From positions 1-64,000 of the forward strand of contig JAUNDZ010000009.1 in the NCBI GenBank assembly GCA_030525825.1: 64,000 nt of DNA, written 5' to 3'. This stretch comes from Moraxella sp. (GTDB lineage: Bacteria > Pseudomonadota > Gammaproteobacteria > Pseudomonadales > Moraxellaceae). A program made the translations under genes and the position numbers. Shown piece by piece: positions 1 through 9,134 of this stretch. The notes below the pieces were generated by a model. That model did not search any database. It worked only from the letters and a program-made list of their open reading frames with translations, and was not told where the DNA came from. Each line of letters begins with the position of its first letter. The first letter of the stretch is position 1.

Positions 1-1234
1 GCCATTTTTGTACTTCATTTTGATGTTTAAAAACAGCCGTATCGCCCTTGCCTGTGGCCTTAAAAAACTCATTCAAATCAAATTCATTAAACTGCCCATC
101 GCTGGCAATATGGCGAATATGCTCTGGTAATTGATAGGTTAATAACATCATTTGCGGTAATGATAAATATGGATTATCACCTTTTGAATTATCCCAATTT
201 AGTTTGGCACTTTGTTCATCTGAATAAGTCCAATTAAAAATCTGCTCCTCAATAAATTCGCCTGTACTAATCGCTCTAAATGGCGTACCTGACAAATACA
301 AATAATGAGCAGTGGTAATGGGTAGCTGACTTTCATCAAAATCCATATTTTGGGTATCTAATTCCATTTCAGTATATTCATCTTTTACTGCCTTTTGTGC
401 CAGCTCTTCATCTTTGGCAAATAGATTTTTGGCATTATCACGCCACGCCCCAAAATGATATTCATCAAATACCACACAATCCCAATTCATCGTGTGTAGC
501 CATTCATTTTTTGCCTTGATATTGCCAAATTTATCTTTGCCCAACAAATCTTGAAATGAACCAAAATATACCATTGGGCGGTTTTTATCATAATTCTCTA
601 TCGTTAAATCACTATCACGGCTGATAAATTGCCAACCATTAAAATCAATATGGCTATTTAAATCATCAGCCCAAGCCGTTTTTACCGCAGGTTTAAATGT
701 TACAATCAACACCCTTTGCCAATTCATCACTTTGGCTAATTGATAAGTCGCAAAAGTTTTGCCAAATCGCATTTTGGCATTCCAAAGAAAATGCGGTGTG
801 CGATTGTGTGTTTTGTCTTGTTTAATGGCATTAAAATAACGCACGGTTTTATCCACCGCCATTTGTTGTTCTGGACGCATTTTAAAATCATTGGTGCGTT
901 TTTTCTCAAAAGTTTTGTTATTTTTGATGTTTAAAATGGCGTTTTTGACTGTATCAATATCACATTCATACCATTCGCCTGCAATGCGTTTTACCCCCAT
1001 TTTCTTTAATTCAGCAAAAACAGCAAAATCTTTAAAATAACCGCCATCATTTTTTATCGCCAAAGTTTCAAATTCCACTTGCCAGCTTTGGCTTGGGGTA
1101 ATGGTTGGATAATGCTGTTTCATACGCTCGCCCACCGTTTCTTGGGCGGTGTAGCCGACTTTTAGGGCATTGGGATAACGGCTGTCGGAATAGACATAGA
1201 TTTTTGGGGTATGGATTGGGGAAAATTGGGTCAT
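1..1234 (-). CDS. DEAD/DEAH-box helicase of an R-M-like island (3' part beyond window)
   Basis: The minus-strand frame is open from an ATG at 1234 to the window edge, so about 411 residues are visible and the C-terminus is missing. Residues about 11-40 (IYVYSDSRYPNALKVGYT) resemble the GIY-YIG/T5orf172-like module found at the start of some restriction helicases. A superfamily 2 helicase core follows: Walker A variant AKMRFGKT near residue 155, DExH box VVFDEYHFGAW near 260, and motif III YLSGTPFR near 315. ATP-driven DNA translocation or restriction is inferred from the family. The gene starts 1 nt after the FRG gene stops, so the two are probably co-transcribed and translationally coupled with the methylase genes upstream. 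No C-terminal nuclease domain can be assessed here. Confidence 0.85.
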   Translation of the reverse strand, partial: MTQFSPIHTPKIYVYSDSRYPNALKVGYTAQETVGERMKQHYPTITPSQSWQVEFETLAIKNDGGYFKDFAVFAELKKMGVKRIAGEWYECDIDTVKNAILNIKNNKTFEKKRTNDFKMRPEQQMAVDKTVRYFNAIKQDKTHNRTPHFLWNAKMRFGKTFATYQLAKVMNWQRVLIVTFKPAVKTAWADDLNSHIDFNGWQFISRDSDLTIENYDKNRPMVYFGSFQDLLGKDKFGNIKAKNEWLHTMNWDCVVFDEYHFGAWRDNAKNLFAKDEELAQKAVKDEYTEMELDTQNMDFDESQLPITTAHYLYLSGTPFRAISTGEFIEEQIFNWTYSDEQSAKLNWDNSKGDNPYLSLPQMMLLTYQLPEHIRHIASDGQFNEFDLNEFFKATGKGDTAVFKHQNEVQKW

Positions 1235-1235
1235 T

Positions 1236-2279
1236 TTAAATATCCTTGTAACGATTAATAATCTGGGTTGCTTGTTTATCTAATTCTGGAAATAAGGTTT
1301 GTCTTGAAATACCAAAATATTCCAATTCGTCTAAAATTTTTTTCTTGGAATGTCTATCAATAATTATTCTTTTGTTATTGATAGTTCTTTGCCAATCTTG
1401 CATTGTTGCTGGATAAATTTTTCTACCATTGATACCAAAAATCAAGAAAGCACCGTGTTGTTTTAAAATTCTTGGATTGGTATGTTTTGCTCTTACGCAC
1501 AAAACTTGGTTGAAATGTTCTCGTTGAATATTTGGCAAAAAATAAGGTTTATCTTTACGAATATCATTTAATATTTTTATTATTTGTTCTTGACTATTAA
1601 ACTCTTTTATTAAAATTGGATTTATTATTTTATTTTGTTCATTATTTGGCAACTTACCAATTTCTGAGATAAGATATTGTATTGTATCAAATAATTGCTT
1701 TTGTTTTGGTTCTGATTGTAGGAAGCTAACAATATCACTTTCATTTTTAAAATACAATGCTTTTTCTCTATTTCCAAAATATTGAGAAATAATAGAAATA
1801 CTATCTATATCAAAATCACTATTTTGTAAAGAAATTGCCGATAAAATAGCAACAGTATCACTATCAGGGTATTTTATTTCATTGGTTGGTATATCAAATA
1901 TAATAACTTCGCCATCTACTTCTTTATCTATTTGCACTTCATTAGTTTTGCAATTATCAATCGCAAAATATAAAGCAACCAAAGCATTAGATGTAATATC
2001 TAAAAGCCTTGTTTTATAATCATAATGTTGTAGTTTAACTAATTTTTCAAATAATGTTTCATTATCAGAAAAATAATTTGAACAATAAGTAAAGGCATCT
2101 TGAATAATTCTATGTTCATTTTCTATCAAATATTTTTGCCGATAAATGCTTGGAATGAGTTGGTAACAACAATTAGAATGCCCACGAAAAAACCGTGATT
2201 TATCTTTATTGCATTCACCCAATTCTGATAAAGCATTTACAAAATCTGAAACGCTTTCAATTCTAATTGCATTACTCAT
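1236..2279 (-). CDS. FRG-domain protein
   Basis: This 347-residue protein carries the FRG signature: RFFRGHSN near residues 29-36, LIPSIYR just after, and the second conserved block TRLLDITSNALVALYFA near residue 92. The FRG domain (PF08867) is a family of unknown function often seen near phage-defence genes. The ATG at 2279 is preceded by a GGAG-like ribosome site. A GTG at 2285 would add two residues and is less likely. The start overlaps the end of the upstream methylase-like gene by 8 nt, and the stop lies 1 nt before the helicase start. It therefore looks like an integral member of the four-gene operon. Base composition is distinctly AT-rich compared with the housekeeping genes to the right, which suggests acquisition. 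Confidence 0.85.
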   Translation of the reverse strand: MSNAIRIESVSDFVNALSELGECNKDKSRFFRGHSNCCYQLIPSIYRQKYLIENEHRIIQDAFTYCSNYFSDNETLFEKLVKLQHYDYKTRLLDITSNALVALYFAIDNCKTNEVQIDKEVDGEVIIFDIPTNEIKYPDSDTVAILSAISLQNSDFDIDSISIISQYFGNREKALYFKNESDIVSFLQSEPKQKQLFDTIQYLISEIGKLPNNEQNKIINPILIKEFNSQEQIIKILNDIRKDKPYFLPNIQREHFNQVLCVRAKHTNPRILKQHGAFLIFGINGRKIYPATMQDWQRTINNKRIIIDRHSKKKILDELEYFGISRQTLFPELDKQATQIINRYKDI

Positions 2280-4006
2280 CACCACTCTCCAAATCTAACT
2301 TTTCTTGTGCTTTATTTTTACTACGAGATTTTTTAACCTTTTCGCCAGTATCGTTATCCATTGGGCTAATTGTATTTTCAATAAGATTAATTTCATCTTT
2401 TGATAACCTATATTTTATATATAATTTTTCATCAGACCAACTTTCATCAAAATTTTGCAAAGGTACAAACTGATAAACACCCCTTGCTCCATTTTGTGTT
2501 TTTTTCTTGATACTTACCAAATATCTAAAAAATTTGGTTTGAATATAAGAAATAATATTATGGCATTGCTGTTCAGTTAAAGAGTGCTTTTTGGGATTGT
2601 AGCCAATAACCAAATAGGTTTGAGAACATACACTATTTGGCTCTCCGTAAAATGGTTTTCCTAATATCAATGTATTAGATCCATTGGCTGCTGGAATATA
2701 AACTTTATGTAAATTTTTACTTTCACAGTTTTTTGGTATCTGTTTTTCATTTATCCAAGCAAATCCTGTTGATAACACATCTTTATTTAAGTAATATTTG
2801 ACGCAAAAATCATCATCTGGATTTTTCTTAAACCCTTTCCAACTTGATGTTAAATATTCTTTATTAGTAAAAAAAATCTTTTGGGCTAACCAAAGATGAA
2901 AAATTATCATCTTCACATAAAAAATAATCTTTATGAAATTTTTCTATTTTGCCTATAATTTTAAATGAATTAGGATCTCTAATAACGATACCAATATTAT
3001 TAGCATCAATAAAATCATTTCTTTGAAAAATATTTCCATTTTCTTTATGATAAATATATTCACACTTTCCATTATAAAATTTTTCCCATAAGAAATAATT
3101 AACACCGCCCTCAATAGGTTGTGATAAATTAGGAAAGCACTCTTTTGAACTTTCAAAATCGTGTATAATTTTAAAGTTTTTTGAACTTAACATATTATCA
3201 ATCCATTCAGGAGAAATCCCTTCTACGCTTCTTGTCATCCATCTACTTGGTGTAATCATTACCAAATATTGTGGTTTAAGTTTCATTGCCTGTTCTATAA
3301 ATAAATGATAAATTGCTTTGGCTTTTGAGCTATTTCCACCATCATTTCCAACATTCAACTGATAAGGCGGATTACCAATAATCACATCAAATTTCATCGT
3401 TAAAATCTCTTTAAATACAGTATCAATATTAGAATGAATAAAGGCATAAGCGTGGTTTTCTAAGCCGTCTCGCTTACCAAATACCCCTTCACTTGCTCCG
3501 CATTCACGACATTTGCCATTATCAAAAATATGCTCACTTTTGCCAAAAATAATATTGCCCATTTCATCATCAAATTCATCACAAATAGAAAAAGACGAAT
3601 TGACAATCTTGGCACAATACACACTACGGCGTGATAATAGGGCGGTCAAATAAGTAATGGCGATGCCATAGACTTGATTTTTGCAAATATGATTAATACG
3701 AGTTTGACGGTCTGGTATTTGATTTTCCAATCCTTTATCCAGTCGTTTGACAATTTCTCGCAGGAATACGCCTAATTTACACACAGGGTCTAAAAATTTG
3801 GCATTGGCATTTGACCAGATTTCATTGGGTAATAAATCAAGCATTAAATTGGCAAGTTTTGGCGATGTAAAGACTTCATCATTAGAAAGACTGGATAAGA
3901 AGTCTAGTACATCAGGGTTATAGACTGGGGCGAATAGGGATAATTGCCCTTGACTCATCTTGTCCAAATCAGGGGTGATGTTGCTATTAATTGCAAATTC
4001 CGTCAT
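2272..4006 (-). pseudogene. Eco57I-type DNA methylase/specificity-like subunit, interrupted by a +1 frameshift
   Basis: Two minus-strand frames together give one protein of about 577 residues. The first part (4006 to about 2870) contains FLDPVCKLGVFLREI (motif I position, residues 71-85, lacking the usual second glycine), a CRECG cysteine pair, and the N6-adenine methylase motif NPPYQL (residues 212-217). It stops at 2864. The second part continues in the next frame to 2272 with the conserved LGKPFYGEPNS and YIQTKFFRYL segments. The break is at an A8 tract (T8 in the coding strand) at 2869-2876; seven bases would restore the frame. The ATG at 4006 has AGGAG upstream and lies 9 nt after the preceding gene. 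It could be a true pseudogene, a phase-off allele or a homopolymer sequencing error; the sequence alone cannot tell. Confidence 0.8.
2869..2876. repeat. A8 homopolymer at the frameshift site of the methylase gene
   Basis: Eight consecutive A on the plus strand (T8 in the coding strand) sit exactly where the reading frame moves from SPKDFF-stop to the continuing TNKEYL frame. Removing one base joins the two halves of a family-like protein. This is either a slippage-prone tract or a base-call error. Confidence 0.85.
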
Positions 4007-4015
4007 GTGATACTC

Positions 4016-4721
4016 CTAGTCTTGTTCTGCTAATTTTAAAAAGTGGGTTTGTGGGTAGTCTTTGATAGGTTTGGCGATAAAGCCTTGTTGATGGCTGATT
4101 TGATTGTCAGTTTTTTCTACCAAATTCTCATAAATATAATCACGCCGTTTTACCATCACGGTACTTATGAATTTAAATTCACTAAATACAATCGGCTCGC
4201 CTGCCAAATCTTTTAAATCCAAGGCATTGCCACCGACGATGTTTTTGGCAAATAAAAATTGAGCGGTATCAATCACACTTTGATTGATATTCTTAAAATA
4301 AGCCTGATAATGCTTTTTAAAAATATCCAACAGACGAATTCGGCACTCGGCACAATTATCAGGCAGCAGCTCAATACCATAGATGGACGAAATCGCCCAG
4401 ATGGCATCTCGCTCATAATGCTCTTGGGAATATTTGGGAGATTTTTGGCTTTTGTTGATTTGGGCGTTTTTTAAGACGATATTTAGTTTTCGGCTTAAAA
4501 TCTCTGCCAAAAAAATTGCCCGTGCCACAAGCAGGTTCCAAAAACGATTTGCCAATGCTCTGCCTTCCCTGCCAGATAGGGTCTGGGAGCAAATCTAGCA
4601 TCGCATTGACTTCACGCTCGGCGGTAAAGACTTCGCCATGATTGGCAACTCGCTGTTTGGATTTGCTTTGGGCGGATTTAGCAGTTTTTTCTGCTGTTGA
4701 GATTTTGGCGGCATCACTCAT
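4016..4721 (-). pseudogene. Short DNA-methylase-like subunit (SAM-binding part), interrupted by a +1 frameshift
   Basis: From an ATG at 4721, with AAAGGCGG upstream, the frame reads through LDLLPDPIW to SAM-binding motif I, FLEPACGTGNF. It then shifts, and the family-like continuation LAEILSRKLN, then YGIELLPDNCAECRIRL and GGNALDLKDL, runs in the neighbouring frame to 4018. The break falls in an A7 tract at 4509-4515. With one base fewer the product would be about 234 residues. No NPPY catalytic motif is visible, so this would be a partial methylase that may work with the next gene, which has NPPY. It is the first gene of the island and follows the pssA terminator. Without correction the translated product would end about 100 residues after the start with an unrelated tail. 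Confidence 0.75.
4509..4515. repeat. A7 homopolymer at the frameshift site of the first methylase-like gene
   Basis: Seven A on the plus strand (T7 in the coding strand) lie inside the codons for the end of motif I (GTGNF). Six T would give GTGNFLAEIL, the expected family sequence; seven give GTGNFFGRD and then an unrelated tail. Confidence 0.85.
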
Positions 4722-4752
4722 TTTGCACCGCCTTTGAAAGATAACAGACACG

Positions 4753-4779
4753 AAAAAAGCCCACCAAACGGCAGGCTTT
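4753..4779 (-). terminator. Rho-independent terminator after pssA
   Basis: Read on the minus strand, AAAGCCTGCC, a GTTT loop and GGTGGGCTTT form a 10-bp stem with two G-U pairs, followed by a T run. It ends pssA transcription and lies just upstream of the first R-M-like gene, marking the left boundary of the housekeeping DNA. Confidence 0.75.
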
Positions 4780-7418: not shown

Positions 7419-8291
7419 ATGTTCTACATCATCACCGCCCTGCTCATCTGGGCAAGCTCGTTCGTGGCGGGCAAATATGCCTACACCATGTTTGACCCTG
7501 CCCTTGCCATACAGTTACGCTTTATCATCGCAAGCCTGATTGTTTTGCCCTTTTTTATCAAAACTTATCCCACCATTGATAAACCCACTCGCAAAAAACT
7601 CTGGGGCATTTCTTTGCTCATGTTTCCCATTGGCATTTTTATGCAGTTCATGGGGCTTTTTTACACATCGGCAAGTAGTGCGGTGGTGGTCATCGGCACA
7701 GAGCCGATACTGGTGCTGGTGCTGGGCTTTTTACTCTTTAAAAGTAAAGTCGCTCTCTATGACTGGGCGTTAAGTGCCATCGCATTTTTGGGGATTTGCC
7801 TGCTGGTCTTAGGCTCAAAAGACGATGGAGCGGTGGACTTGTTTGGGCTGTCATTGGTCTTTTTGGCAGGGGCAGGCTTTGCTCTTAGCCTATATGTCGC
7901 CAAAGAAGTGATGGCAAGGCTTGATAACAAAGTTTATACCTCCACCATCTTGGTGTAGGGCATGATTTTATGCTTACCCTTCTCGCTGGTTTTGGTAAAA
8001 AATTGGCAAGTTGATTTTAATTGGCTTGGCTTATTATCAGTGCTATACTTAGGGGTGTGTTGTAGCTGGCTTGCCTATAAACTATGGAACTTGGGACTTG
8101 CCAAAACCCCTGCTCATATTAGCGGTATGTTAATCAGTTTAGAACCTGTATTTGGCGTGCTACTGGCAATGGTGCTACTGGGCGAGACGATGACGCTGTT
8201 GATGGCGGTTGGGAGCGTGCTGGTGATTGGCTCGGCGATGTTATCGACTGTCATTCCGATTTTAAAAACCAAATATGGGCAGAGCAGATAA
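7419..8291 (+). pseudogene. EamA/DMT-family permease with an internal amber codon
   Basis: The frame encodes a typical 290-residue drug/metabolite transporter with ten hydrophobic segments in two EamA repeats (first repeat IITALLIWASSFVAGKYA, second SLVLVKNWQVDFNWLGLL onward with the LEPVFGVLLAMVLLGE signature). At codon 180 (7956-7958) a TAG interrupts the frame inside the sixth helix (STILV-stop-GMILCL), and reading resumes in the same frame. A tryptophan codon TGG would need only one transition, so this looks like a recent nonsense mutation. The first half could make a half-transporter of 179 residues, but function is doubtful. The rest of the gene has not decayed visibly. Confidence 0.85.
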
Positions 8292-8403
8292 CACAAAATC
8301 TACCCAAAACAATGGACTACAGGTCATACCTAATAGCCCATTTGCCATACTGATGATACACGCTTTATTAACAAATGTTTTTATCATCCAAAGCAAGCAA
8401 TCA

Positions 8404-8922
8404 TCACTTCGCTTGTTCAAGCATATAATCAACCGCCGCATAAACTTCAGCTTCGGTTACTCCCCCAACCGCCTGTGCTGGCATTTTATTAAAGCCTTTG
8501 GCGGAATGCTGATGCAAAGTATCCACGCCTTTTTCTAGGCGTTTTGCCCATTCTGCCTTGTCGGTCAGTTTTGGAGCGTCCAGCAGACCTTGATCATGAC
8601 AGACTTTACAAGTCTGCTCATAGCGTTTTTTACCTTCTGCGATGGATAAAGGTTTGACAGGACTGGCGGTATCGGCTGCTGCATTGGCGGTATTGTCCGC
8701 TGGTGTATCTGGCTTGGCTGGCTCTGCCGCCGTCTCTTTGACAGGCTCTTGTACCACTTCGGCTTTATCCGGGGCGGGTGCTTCTGCTGTCTTTGGTGCT
8801 GGCGTTTCGGTTTTGGCACTTTGTTTGGGCGTAGGTTCTGCCTTATCACCGCCGCACGCACCAAGCGTCAGAGCAAGCATCGCCACGCCAAGTGTCAAAG
8901 GAAATTTCGCTGGGTATTTCAT
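8404..8922 (-). CDS. Cytochrome c5-type lipoprotein
   Basis: A 172-residue haem protein. The signal peptide ends in lipobox LGAC (Cys at 23), so it is predicted to be a lipid-anchored periplasmic protein. Residues about 25-95 are an Ala/Pro/Glu/Lys-rich low-complexity linker. A compact c-type cytochrome domain follows, with CKVCH haem attachment and the axial methionine in NKMPAQAV, as in cytochrome c5. The likely role is electron transfer to a terminal oxidase or reductase, with the linker letting the haem domain reach across the periplasm. It is convergent with the permease and monocistronic. Confidence 0.88.
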   Translation of the reverse strand: MKYPAKFPLTLGVAMLALTLGACGGDKAEPTPKQSAKTETPAPKTAEAPAPDKAEVVQEPVKETAAEPAKPDTPADNTANAAADTASPVKPLSIAEGKKRYEQTCKVCHDQGLLDAPKLTDKAEWAKRLEKGVDTLHQHSAKGFNKMPAQAVGGVTEAEVYAAVDYMLEQAK

Positions 8923-9134
8923 ATTGCCTCGCTTTTTTGGTATTTTTCATCGTTATTATAATGTCAGCCGCATTGGACAACACGCCTATAATATACCTAA
9001 TTTTGTTAAGGATTTATAGTTAATATTTCTAATATTTTTCTTATTTTATGATTGACTTTACCAATAATTAGTCAAAAAATGCTCAAAGCCACCCCTTTTA
9101 CCGATGTTTTTGTATCAATACTGTATCCATAGAT

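Follow-up and report, generated by a model that had tools for sequence, protein, structure and literature searches.

The first 64,000 nucleotides of contig JAUNDZ010000009.1 of a Moraxella sp. (the whole stretch is called the window here) begin with four genes on the minus strand, running from position 4721 to position 1 in the order M1, M2, FRG, R. The operon is a decayed restriction-modification (R-M) system of the DrdVI type, consisting of M1, M2, and R, and the gene for the FRG-domain protein is an optional cassette between M2 and R that is exchanged between strains. The parts of the locus are as follows (loci, genomes, and contigs bear numbers beginning with L, G, and C below).

4016 to 4721, minus strand: M1, small subunit (N6-methylase) of a split methylase of the DrdVI type, its frame broken at motif I; the longer of its two pieces shares 41-65% identity with M1 from six relatives
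2272 to 4006, minus strand: M2, methylase of the Eco57I type that has the NPPY motif and a C-terminal region, its frame broken (Pfam Eco57I, E = 7.6e-32, 111.2 bits)
1236 to 2279, minus strand: FRG-domain protein, 347 amino acids, open frame (Pfam FRG, E = 7.6e-17, 62.4 bits, cut-off 25; PADLOC PDC-S15, E = 1.8e-94)
1 to 1234, minus strand: R, GIY-YIG/T5orf172 nuclease domain and ResIII-type translocase (Pfam T5orf172 and ResIII); N-terminal 411 amino acids only, the contig end cutting off the rest
4509 to 4515, minus strand: 7-base homopolymer tract, break point of the M1 frame
2869 to 2876, minus strand: 8-base homopolymer tract, break point of the M2 frame
2272 to 2279, minus strand: 8 nucleotides in which the end of M2 overlaps the start of FRG, forming the upstream edge of the exchanged slot
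4756 to 4779, minus strand: terminator-like stem between a pssA-like gene and M1 (4 such sites per 1.2 kb versus 1.4 expected from shuffles)

A sequence-only reading of this DNA had described an AT-rich group of genes tightly packed on one strand after a terminator, with an FRG-domain gene and a GIY-YIG/T5orf172-like helicase among them. All of this is borne out: R starts 1 nucleotide past the FRG stop, the G+C content is 33.1% in the operon (26.5% in FRG alone) and 46.9% in the rest of the window, the stem at 4779-4756 follows the pssA-like gene, and both domains are found by Pfam. The same reading saw two methylase-like genes in a four-gene operon. The Eco57I-type methylase and the operon are real, but neither methylase gene is intact, the two are subunits of one split methylase, R is cut, and FRG is optional. 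Its hope of recovering the helicase C-terminus by extension to the left was disappointed, as contig C45 itself begins at window position 1 and no second piece of R was found in the same genome at E ≤ 1e-60 with a full-length R query. In G063, an M1-like frame (judged by eye) adjoins a pssA-like gene at a contig end, and this genome may therefore carry a version of the locus with a DUF3223-type gene at the same site. The R-M locus of G045 and G092 is not at the pssA-like gene.

The assignment of the core rests on gene content and order. In the window pieces and in the relatives, an M1 with an S-adenosylmethionine (SAM) motif, an M2 with NPPY, and an R with GIY-YIG nuclease and translocase follow one another, and the restriction system proposed from the letters alone is thereby supported as a DrdVI-type split-methylase R-M. 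Relatives of R at 59-95% identity occur in 8 of 198 other genomes of the same family (Moraxellaceae-like); M1 and M2 precede R in six of them, and in two the contig is cut inside M2. The window R is 94-95% identical to that of G075 and 57-58% identical to that of Rodentibacter. With the latter as query, we obtained matches in 24 of 140 Pasteurellaceae-like genomes (fragments and one distant match counted) and in 13 of 369 genomes of a class sample (the window's own included, fragments and distant matches counted), and also on plasmids, one of them pDrdVI of Deinococcus wulumuqiensis. Across the aligned loci, M1 shows motif I by pattern in 37 of 41 (the window piece does not span it) and NPPY in none of 41, and M2 shows NPPY in 41 of 44 rows, the exceptions being two fragments and L110, where the motif is changed. 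Motif I of M2 holds an invariant lysine in all 41 rows with letters there. The two subunits of relatives (e.g., L027:6827-7480 and 7467-8996) thus look reciprocally incomplete, M1 having motif I without NPPY and M2 having NPPY with a lysine in motif I. No solved structure similar to R or M2 was found at E ≤ 0.001. Two further carriers of this core may be mentioned: a small plasmid (L118, NZ_CP054605.1) with a DrdVI-type R near an annotated reverse transcriptase and a Toll/interleukin-1 receptor domain protein, and a phage record from human feces (L121, PV036449.1) with an M1-M2-R set.

We scanned 47 loci for the three genes, and 44 show the junction of M2 and R (two are without visible M2 and one is degraded; the junction of L031 was observed in a separate search). 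The slot at this junction holds FRG in nine cases, a DUF3223-like gene in four, other genes in two, and nothing in 29. The FRG genes fall into subfamilies A (the window, L027, L029, L030, L092), B (L082, L109), and C (L093, L112). The DUF3223-like protein has 220-221 residues in the four loci; in the two that were scanned it stays below the Pfam cut-off, and one of these matches a HamC-like DUF3223 model of PADLOC (E = 9e-6). The two other occupants, found once each, are a YhcG/DUF1016 protein (L087) and a zinc-ribbon-like protein (PDC-S64). The sequence-only reading had treated FRG as a tightly coupled fourth member and had held that its absence from otherwise identical loci would speak against this. 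Such loci are common: 35 of 44 junctions are without FRG, and an obligate four-gene system is rejected. Indeed, the nearest relative by R, G075, has a DUF3223-like gene in place of FRG. The same four-gene order was nevertheless sought in other families and does exist, with M1-M2-FRG-R open in Rodentibacter.

The exchange is almost exact. In a blastn comparison with G075, the window is matched at 4665-3051 and 2578-2265 and then not again until 1238, leaving the FRG gene unmatched; position 2265 lies 14 bases inside the FRG gene and 1238 four bases before the R start, so that the borders of exchange are within ~15 bases of the gene borders. The locus is a mosaic; positions 3050-2579 of M2 itself are also unmatched. 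When slot contents are placed on the R tree, the subfamily A label must change at least 4 times and the DUF3223-like label 4 times, 3 of the latter being forced by well-supported branches. Clustering of the DUF3223-like label does not exceed that in shuffles; the subfamily A label scores as low in 76 of 500 shuffles. Thus, slot content does not follow the R tree and changes faster than the core.

Both methylase genes of the window are broken, M1 into frames 4751..4413 and 4555..4016 and M2 into frames 4006..2864 and 2916..2272, whereas relatives have intact copies. Sequencing noise is an unlikely source of both breaks, since all twelve neighbouring genes matched to relatives' proteins (4.9-18.8 kb) are one unbroken frame each; errors confined to the two homopolymer tracts, or phase variation, may be the cause. 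Outside these twelve, one in-frame stop interrupts a transporter-like gene at 7419-8291. Decay recurs among the relatives (L104, L108, L109, L110, L112), and in Bibersteinia a DrdVI-like locus that includes a GIY-YIG gene has likewise been described as fragmented (PMC4996451). A rival explanation is that the whole locus is a decaying remnant, in which FRG has no present role in this strain. The broken M1 and M2, the R cut by the contig end, the other broken loci, and the in-frame stop nearby fit this explanation, but FRG is open and keeps all of its signature residues, and the unbroken neighbours argue against general noise in the sequence; we regard it as doubtful. FRG is in fact open in all three FRG-bearing DrdVI-type loci with broken M or R genes (the window, L109, and L112). 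FRG therefore does not look like a constitutive toxin restrained by R-M proteins alone; a trigger of its own, or activation through the R-M complex, is a better fit than R-M acting as antitoxin.

The window protein carries all eight signature residues of the FRG domain (R-G, R, H, T, D, R, Q). The same residues stand at the eight positions in 22 of 25 R-M-embedded FRG proteins, one having T replaced by S and two being short and without the end of the pattern; R32, G33, R47, H85, and D94 are invariant in all 57 FRG rows that we aligned. This conservation fits an enzyme. The Frg domain has been presented as a member of the ADP-ribosyltransferase (ART) superfamily and a possible NADase or effector (PMC9503650), and following this published prediction the window protein is most likely an ART-superfamily enzyme. 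Searches for similar solved structures gave only non-significant matches (best E = 0.066). Among viral contigs, no relatives were found by the protein's own peptides, and only distant ones with alignments (9 loci in one search, 3 in another).

To place FRG in a wider setting, we surveyed the two families with the Pfam model, finding it in 27 of 140 Pasteurellaceae-like and 26 of 199 Moraxellaceae-like genomes. The 58 places above the cut-off comprise the nine DrdVI-type slots, 48 other loci that were examined, and one unparsed place (G584:C6, L201) that is excluded from the counts. Sixteen of the 48 lie in type I R-M operons, where FRG follows HsdS and mostly precedes HsdR: in 14 of the 16, HsdR is downstream on the same strand within the fetched stretch, several with small genes between. 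The window's own genome has such an operon on contig 3, HsdM-HsdS-FRG-HsdR (L218), and HsdS is present by tblastn in L185 and L192. In the FRG tree (57 rows), a clade of 20 rows with support 100/99 contains 15 type I and four DrdVI-type genes (subfamilies B and C) and a single exception, L180, which sits at a contig edge with visible neighbours that are not R-M genes; 19 of 20 are thus R-M-linked. Subfamily A, that of the window, groups with stand-alone FRG genes and was recruited to the R-M slot separately from B and C. Stand-alone FRG genes lie in sense beside hisF/hisI-, glyQ/glyS-, and carA/carB-like genes (L186, L193, L194, L188, L203, L190; names by eye). In L188, and similarly in L203, a 337-residue DUF1016-like frame (by eye) joins FRG between the glyQ- and glyS-like genes; DUF1016 also fills the slot of L087. 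A class-wide search with a profile of the R-M-clade FRG gave ten places outside the two families, for which R-M genes were called by reference search: one is HsdS-FRG-HsdR, two are beside HsdM-like genes, and one has in its vicinity a large frame that shows a methylase-type motif (by motif match alone). Genome G243 (L309, L310, L311) has four places matching this profile, three beside HsdM/S/R-like genes and one near a large frame of the latter kind.

These surroundings raise the possibility that FRG is a passenger, that is, defence cargo that enters any operon in sense and for which R-M operons are merely frequent landing sites in variable loci. The in-sense copies beside or inside housekeeping operons suggest as much, as do the unrelated genes that use the same slot and the mosaic nature of the locus. 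Chance placement fits the numbers poorly: in the Pasteurellaceae-like family, 19 of 31 FRG places (30 examined) are in R-M operons, whereas a random gene would lie directly before one of these R genes in ~0.03% of cases (a rough figure from ~95 R matches in 140 genomes of ~2,100 genes each, the gene number being estimated). Given also the almost wholly R-M-linked clade and the HsdR-like tails of some FRG proteins, we find the passenger explanation quite unlikely.

These tails are found on FRG proteins of 410-421 amino acids in type I operons, in which a C-terminal stretch of ~60 residues is homologous to the C-terminus of HsdR. The genes are:

L183:4991-6250, L184:5505-6734, L206:5082-6341, L295:5962-7227: tailed FRG genes

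The PADLOC model for the type I R subunit (REase_I) matches residues 355-413 of the 420-residue FRG of G671 (E = 1.5e-5). We built a profile from 15 HsdR C-termini and compared it with 4,740 frames from the fetched loci, obtaining 43 matches at E ≤ 0.5. Of these, 37 are frames of at least 800 residues (the size of R, though not each was checked), and the six smaller ones (E from 3e-9 to 0.039) are, judged by place, five FRG proteins and the C-terminal part of an FRG that is split in G659. A reverse profile, built on the five FRG tails, matched its own five, the G659 piece, HsdR C-termini (E from ~1e-8 to 1e-4, one at 0.02), and one stray frame (9e-4). Moreover, hhalign aligned four FRG tails with nine HsdR tails over 55 columns (probability 96.1, E = 3.4e-9). 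No solved structure similar to the HsdR tail was found at E ≤ 0.1. Four plasmid records match the tailed type I FRG; the two inspected both carry it in type I operons, HsdM-HsdS-FRG-HsdR in Rhizobium and FRG-HsdM-HsdS-helicase in Shewanella. The C-terminal region of HsdR helps to seat HsdR on the methylase, and the tail suggests that FRG and HsdR may share a seat on the complex.

FRG could act as a guard in the manner of PrrC: it would sit on the R-M complex, and either inhibition of restriction by a phage or an encounter of the complex with unmodified DNA would release or activate it. The place of the gene agrees with this, immediately ahead of R in DrdVI-type loci and, in type I loci, between HsdS and HsdR, and so does the tail. 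However, the HsdR-tail profile has no match to the window FRG or to any DrdVI-slot FRG. The survival of open FRG in the three loci with broken partners, where a toxin held only by R-M should not persist, and the existence of stand-alone relatives also speak against such a guard. Among the first 15 matches of unexpected size for each model, not each of which was checked, no stretch common to FRG and the DrdVI-type R, M1, or M2 was seen. We prefer a phage-triggered effector carried with R-M; direct coupling is a serious rival, best supported in the type I systems, but on the whole we think it unlikely.

FRG shares the type I position with other genes. Upstream of 30 HsdR (out of ~71 match rows), we saw many different genes, some several hundred bases away from HsdR, and ten of them were chosen for scanning. 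Pfam recognized Abi_2, Abi_C, HEPN_AbiU2, two Fic, and one HATPase/RecG-C-like gene; of the four without a family, one is PDC-S64-like in PADLOC.

We therefore propose, with a probability of about 50%, that the locus is a decayed DrdVI-type R-M operon with an FRG effector cassette in the exchangeable slot before R, the protein being a probable phage-triggered ART enzyme that serves as a back-up layer. FRG would be expressed with R as an abortive-infection effector forming a second layer behind R-M; on phage infection it would consume NAD+ or transfer ADP-ribose, and would stop the cell or the phage once restriction has failed. The chemistry is taken from the published prediction, and the phage trigger, the co-expression, and the back-up role are what we infer. 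The accessory effector already suggested from the sequence alone is supported, as a prediction, by the recurrence of FRG (nine DrdVI-type and 16 type I loci), by its slot-mates, and by published predictions. Several observations weigh against our proposal. With 29 of 44 slots empty, R works without FRG. The window's FRG subfamily also stands alone, in sense beside housekeeping genes (hisF/hisI and glyQ/glyS by eye), and none of seven inspected plasmid relatives of the window FRG (288 matched records) is in an R-M operon; this subfamily thus does not need R-M. Outside the two families, six of the ten class-wide loci are without an R-M gene by reference search, and within them 33 of 58 FRG places are outside R-M operons or unparsed.

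A broader idea is that the outputs of R-M modification complexes can be exchanged. An FRG effector would share or take the seat of R, as the HsdR-like tail hints for some type I systems, and the methylase core would sense unmodified DNA and could set off NAD+ chemistry, either in place of cutting or after it; the window would hold a DrdVI-type version with a differently built contact. We consider this speculative and improbable as it stands. Defence genes embedded in R-M operons are known, and the contact with the partner is known in few cases. Near-exact exchange of a one-gene cassette, repeated recruitment of FRG in two unrelated R-M types, and the HsdR-like tail make a possible handover from restriction to a suicide effector testable directly and cheaply.

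Among known systems, we considered Type ISP, to which LlaGI and LlaBIII belong. The matches of R include, at ~30%, long Eco57I proteins that lactococcal plasmids encode as a single chain, presumably Type ISP enzymes. This membership was rejected: by its definition (PMC3874165), Type ISP is a single polypeptide with an Mrr-like nuclease, whereas the window has separate chains with a GIY-YIG (T5orf172) nuclease. The closest likeness is to DrdVI and MaeIV. DrdVI is listed as type IIG, M1-2, with motif GCAGCC and N6-methyladenine (6mA) modification (PMC6430315), MaeIV is termed a split methylase/RM like DrdVI (PMC10113651), for both, the published modification is m6A at an asymmetric site (PMC6430315, PMC10113651), and the R of DrdVI is described as fusing a translocase to a nuclease of the GIY-YIG type (PMC4996451). 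The pDrdVI locus (L117) has the same three genes in the same order; the window adds FRG before R, has M1 and M2 broken, and has R incomplete in the assembly.

The FRG protein itself corresponds to the PADLOC candidate PDC-S15 (FRG), matched at the E-value listed above. PDC names derive from guilt-by-embedding (PMC10855318, PMC12988326), and PDC-S15 is termed uncharacterised (PMC12482510). The literature that we found on PDC-S15 does not, in the portions consulted, describe embedding in DrdVI-type R-M or slot exchange, the preprint that is the source of the PDC names standing outside this comparison. Likewise, searches with FRG or R-M-embedding terms returned no title that pairs FRG with R-M, and 'frg' does not occur in the available text of PMC3506569, PMC12255303, PMC13092281, or PMC12988326; the PDC source (Payne et al. 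2024, preprint) may already describe the pairing.

The coupling of R-M with suicide genes, with repeated replacement of the toxin, was proposed in 2012 (PMC3506569). PrrC in EcoprrI is a known case of an effector gene embedded in an R-M operon (PMC3874165, PMC3506569, PMC12707154). The window protein differs from PrrC in having neither an ABC NTPase nor an anticodon nuclease, only FRG being found by Pfam above the cut-off, but its gene is embedded in an R-M operon in the same way. In 2025, DarTG2 was reported between hsdS and hsdR, at a site called a potential recombination hotspot (PMC12255303). DarTG2 brings its own antitoxin, DarG, whereas FRG has no identified antitoxin-like partner; the two are alike in that DarTG2, too, places an ADP-ribosylating toxin in the slot that FRG occupies in type I operons (PMC12255303).

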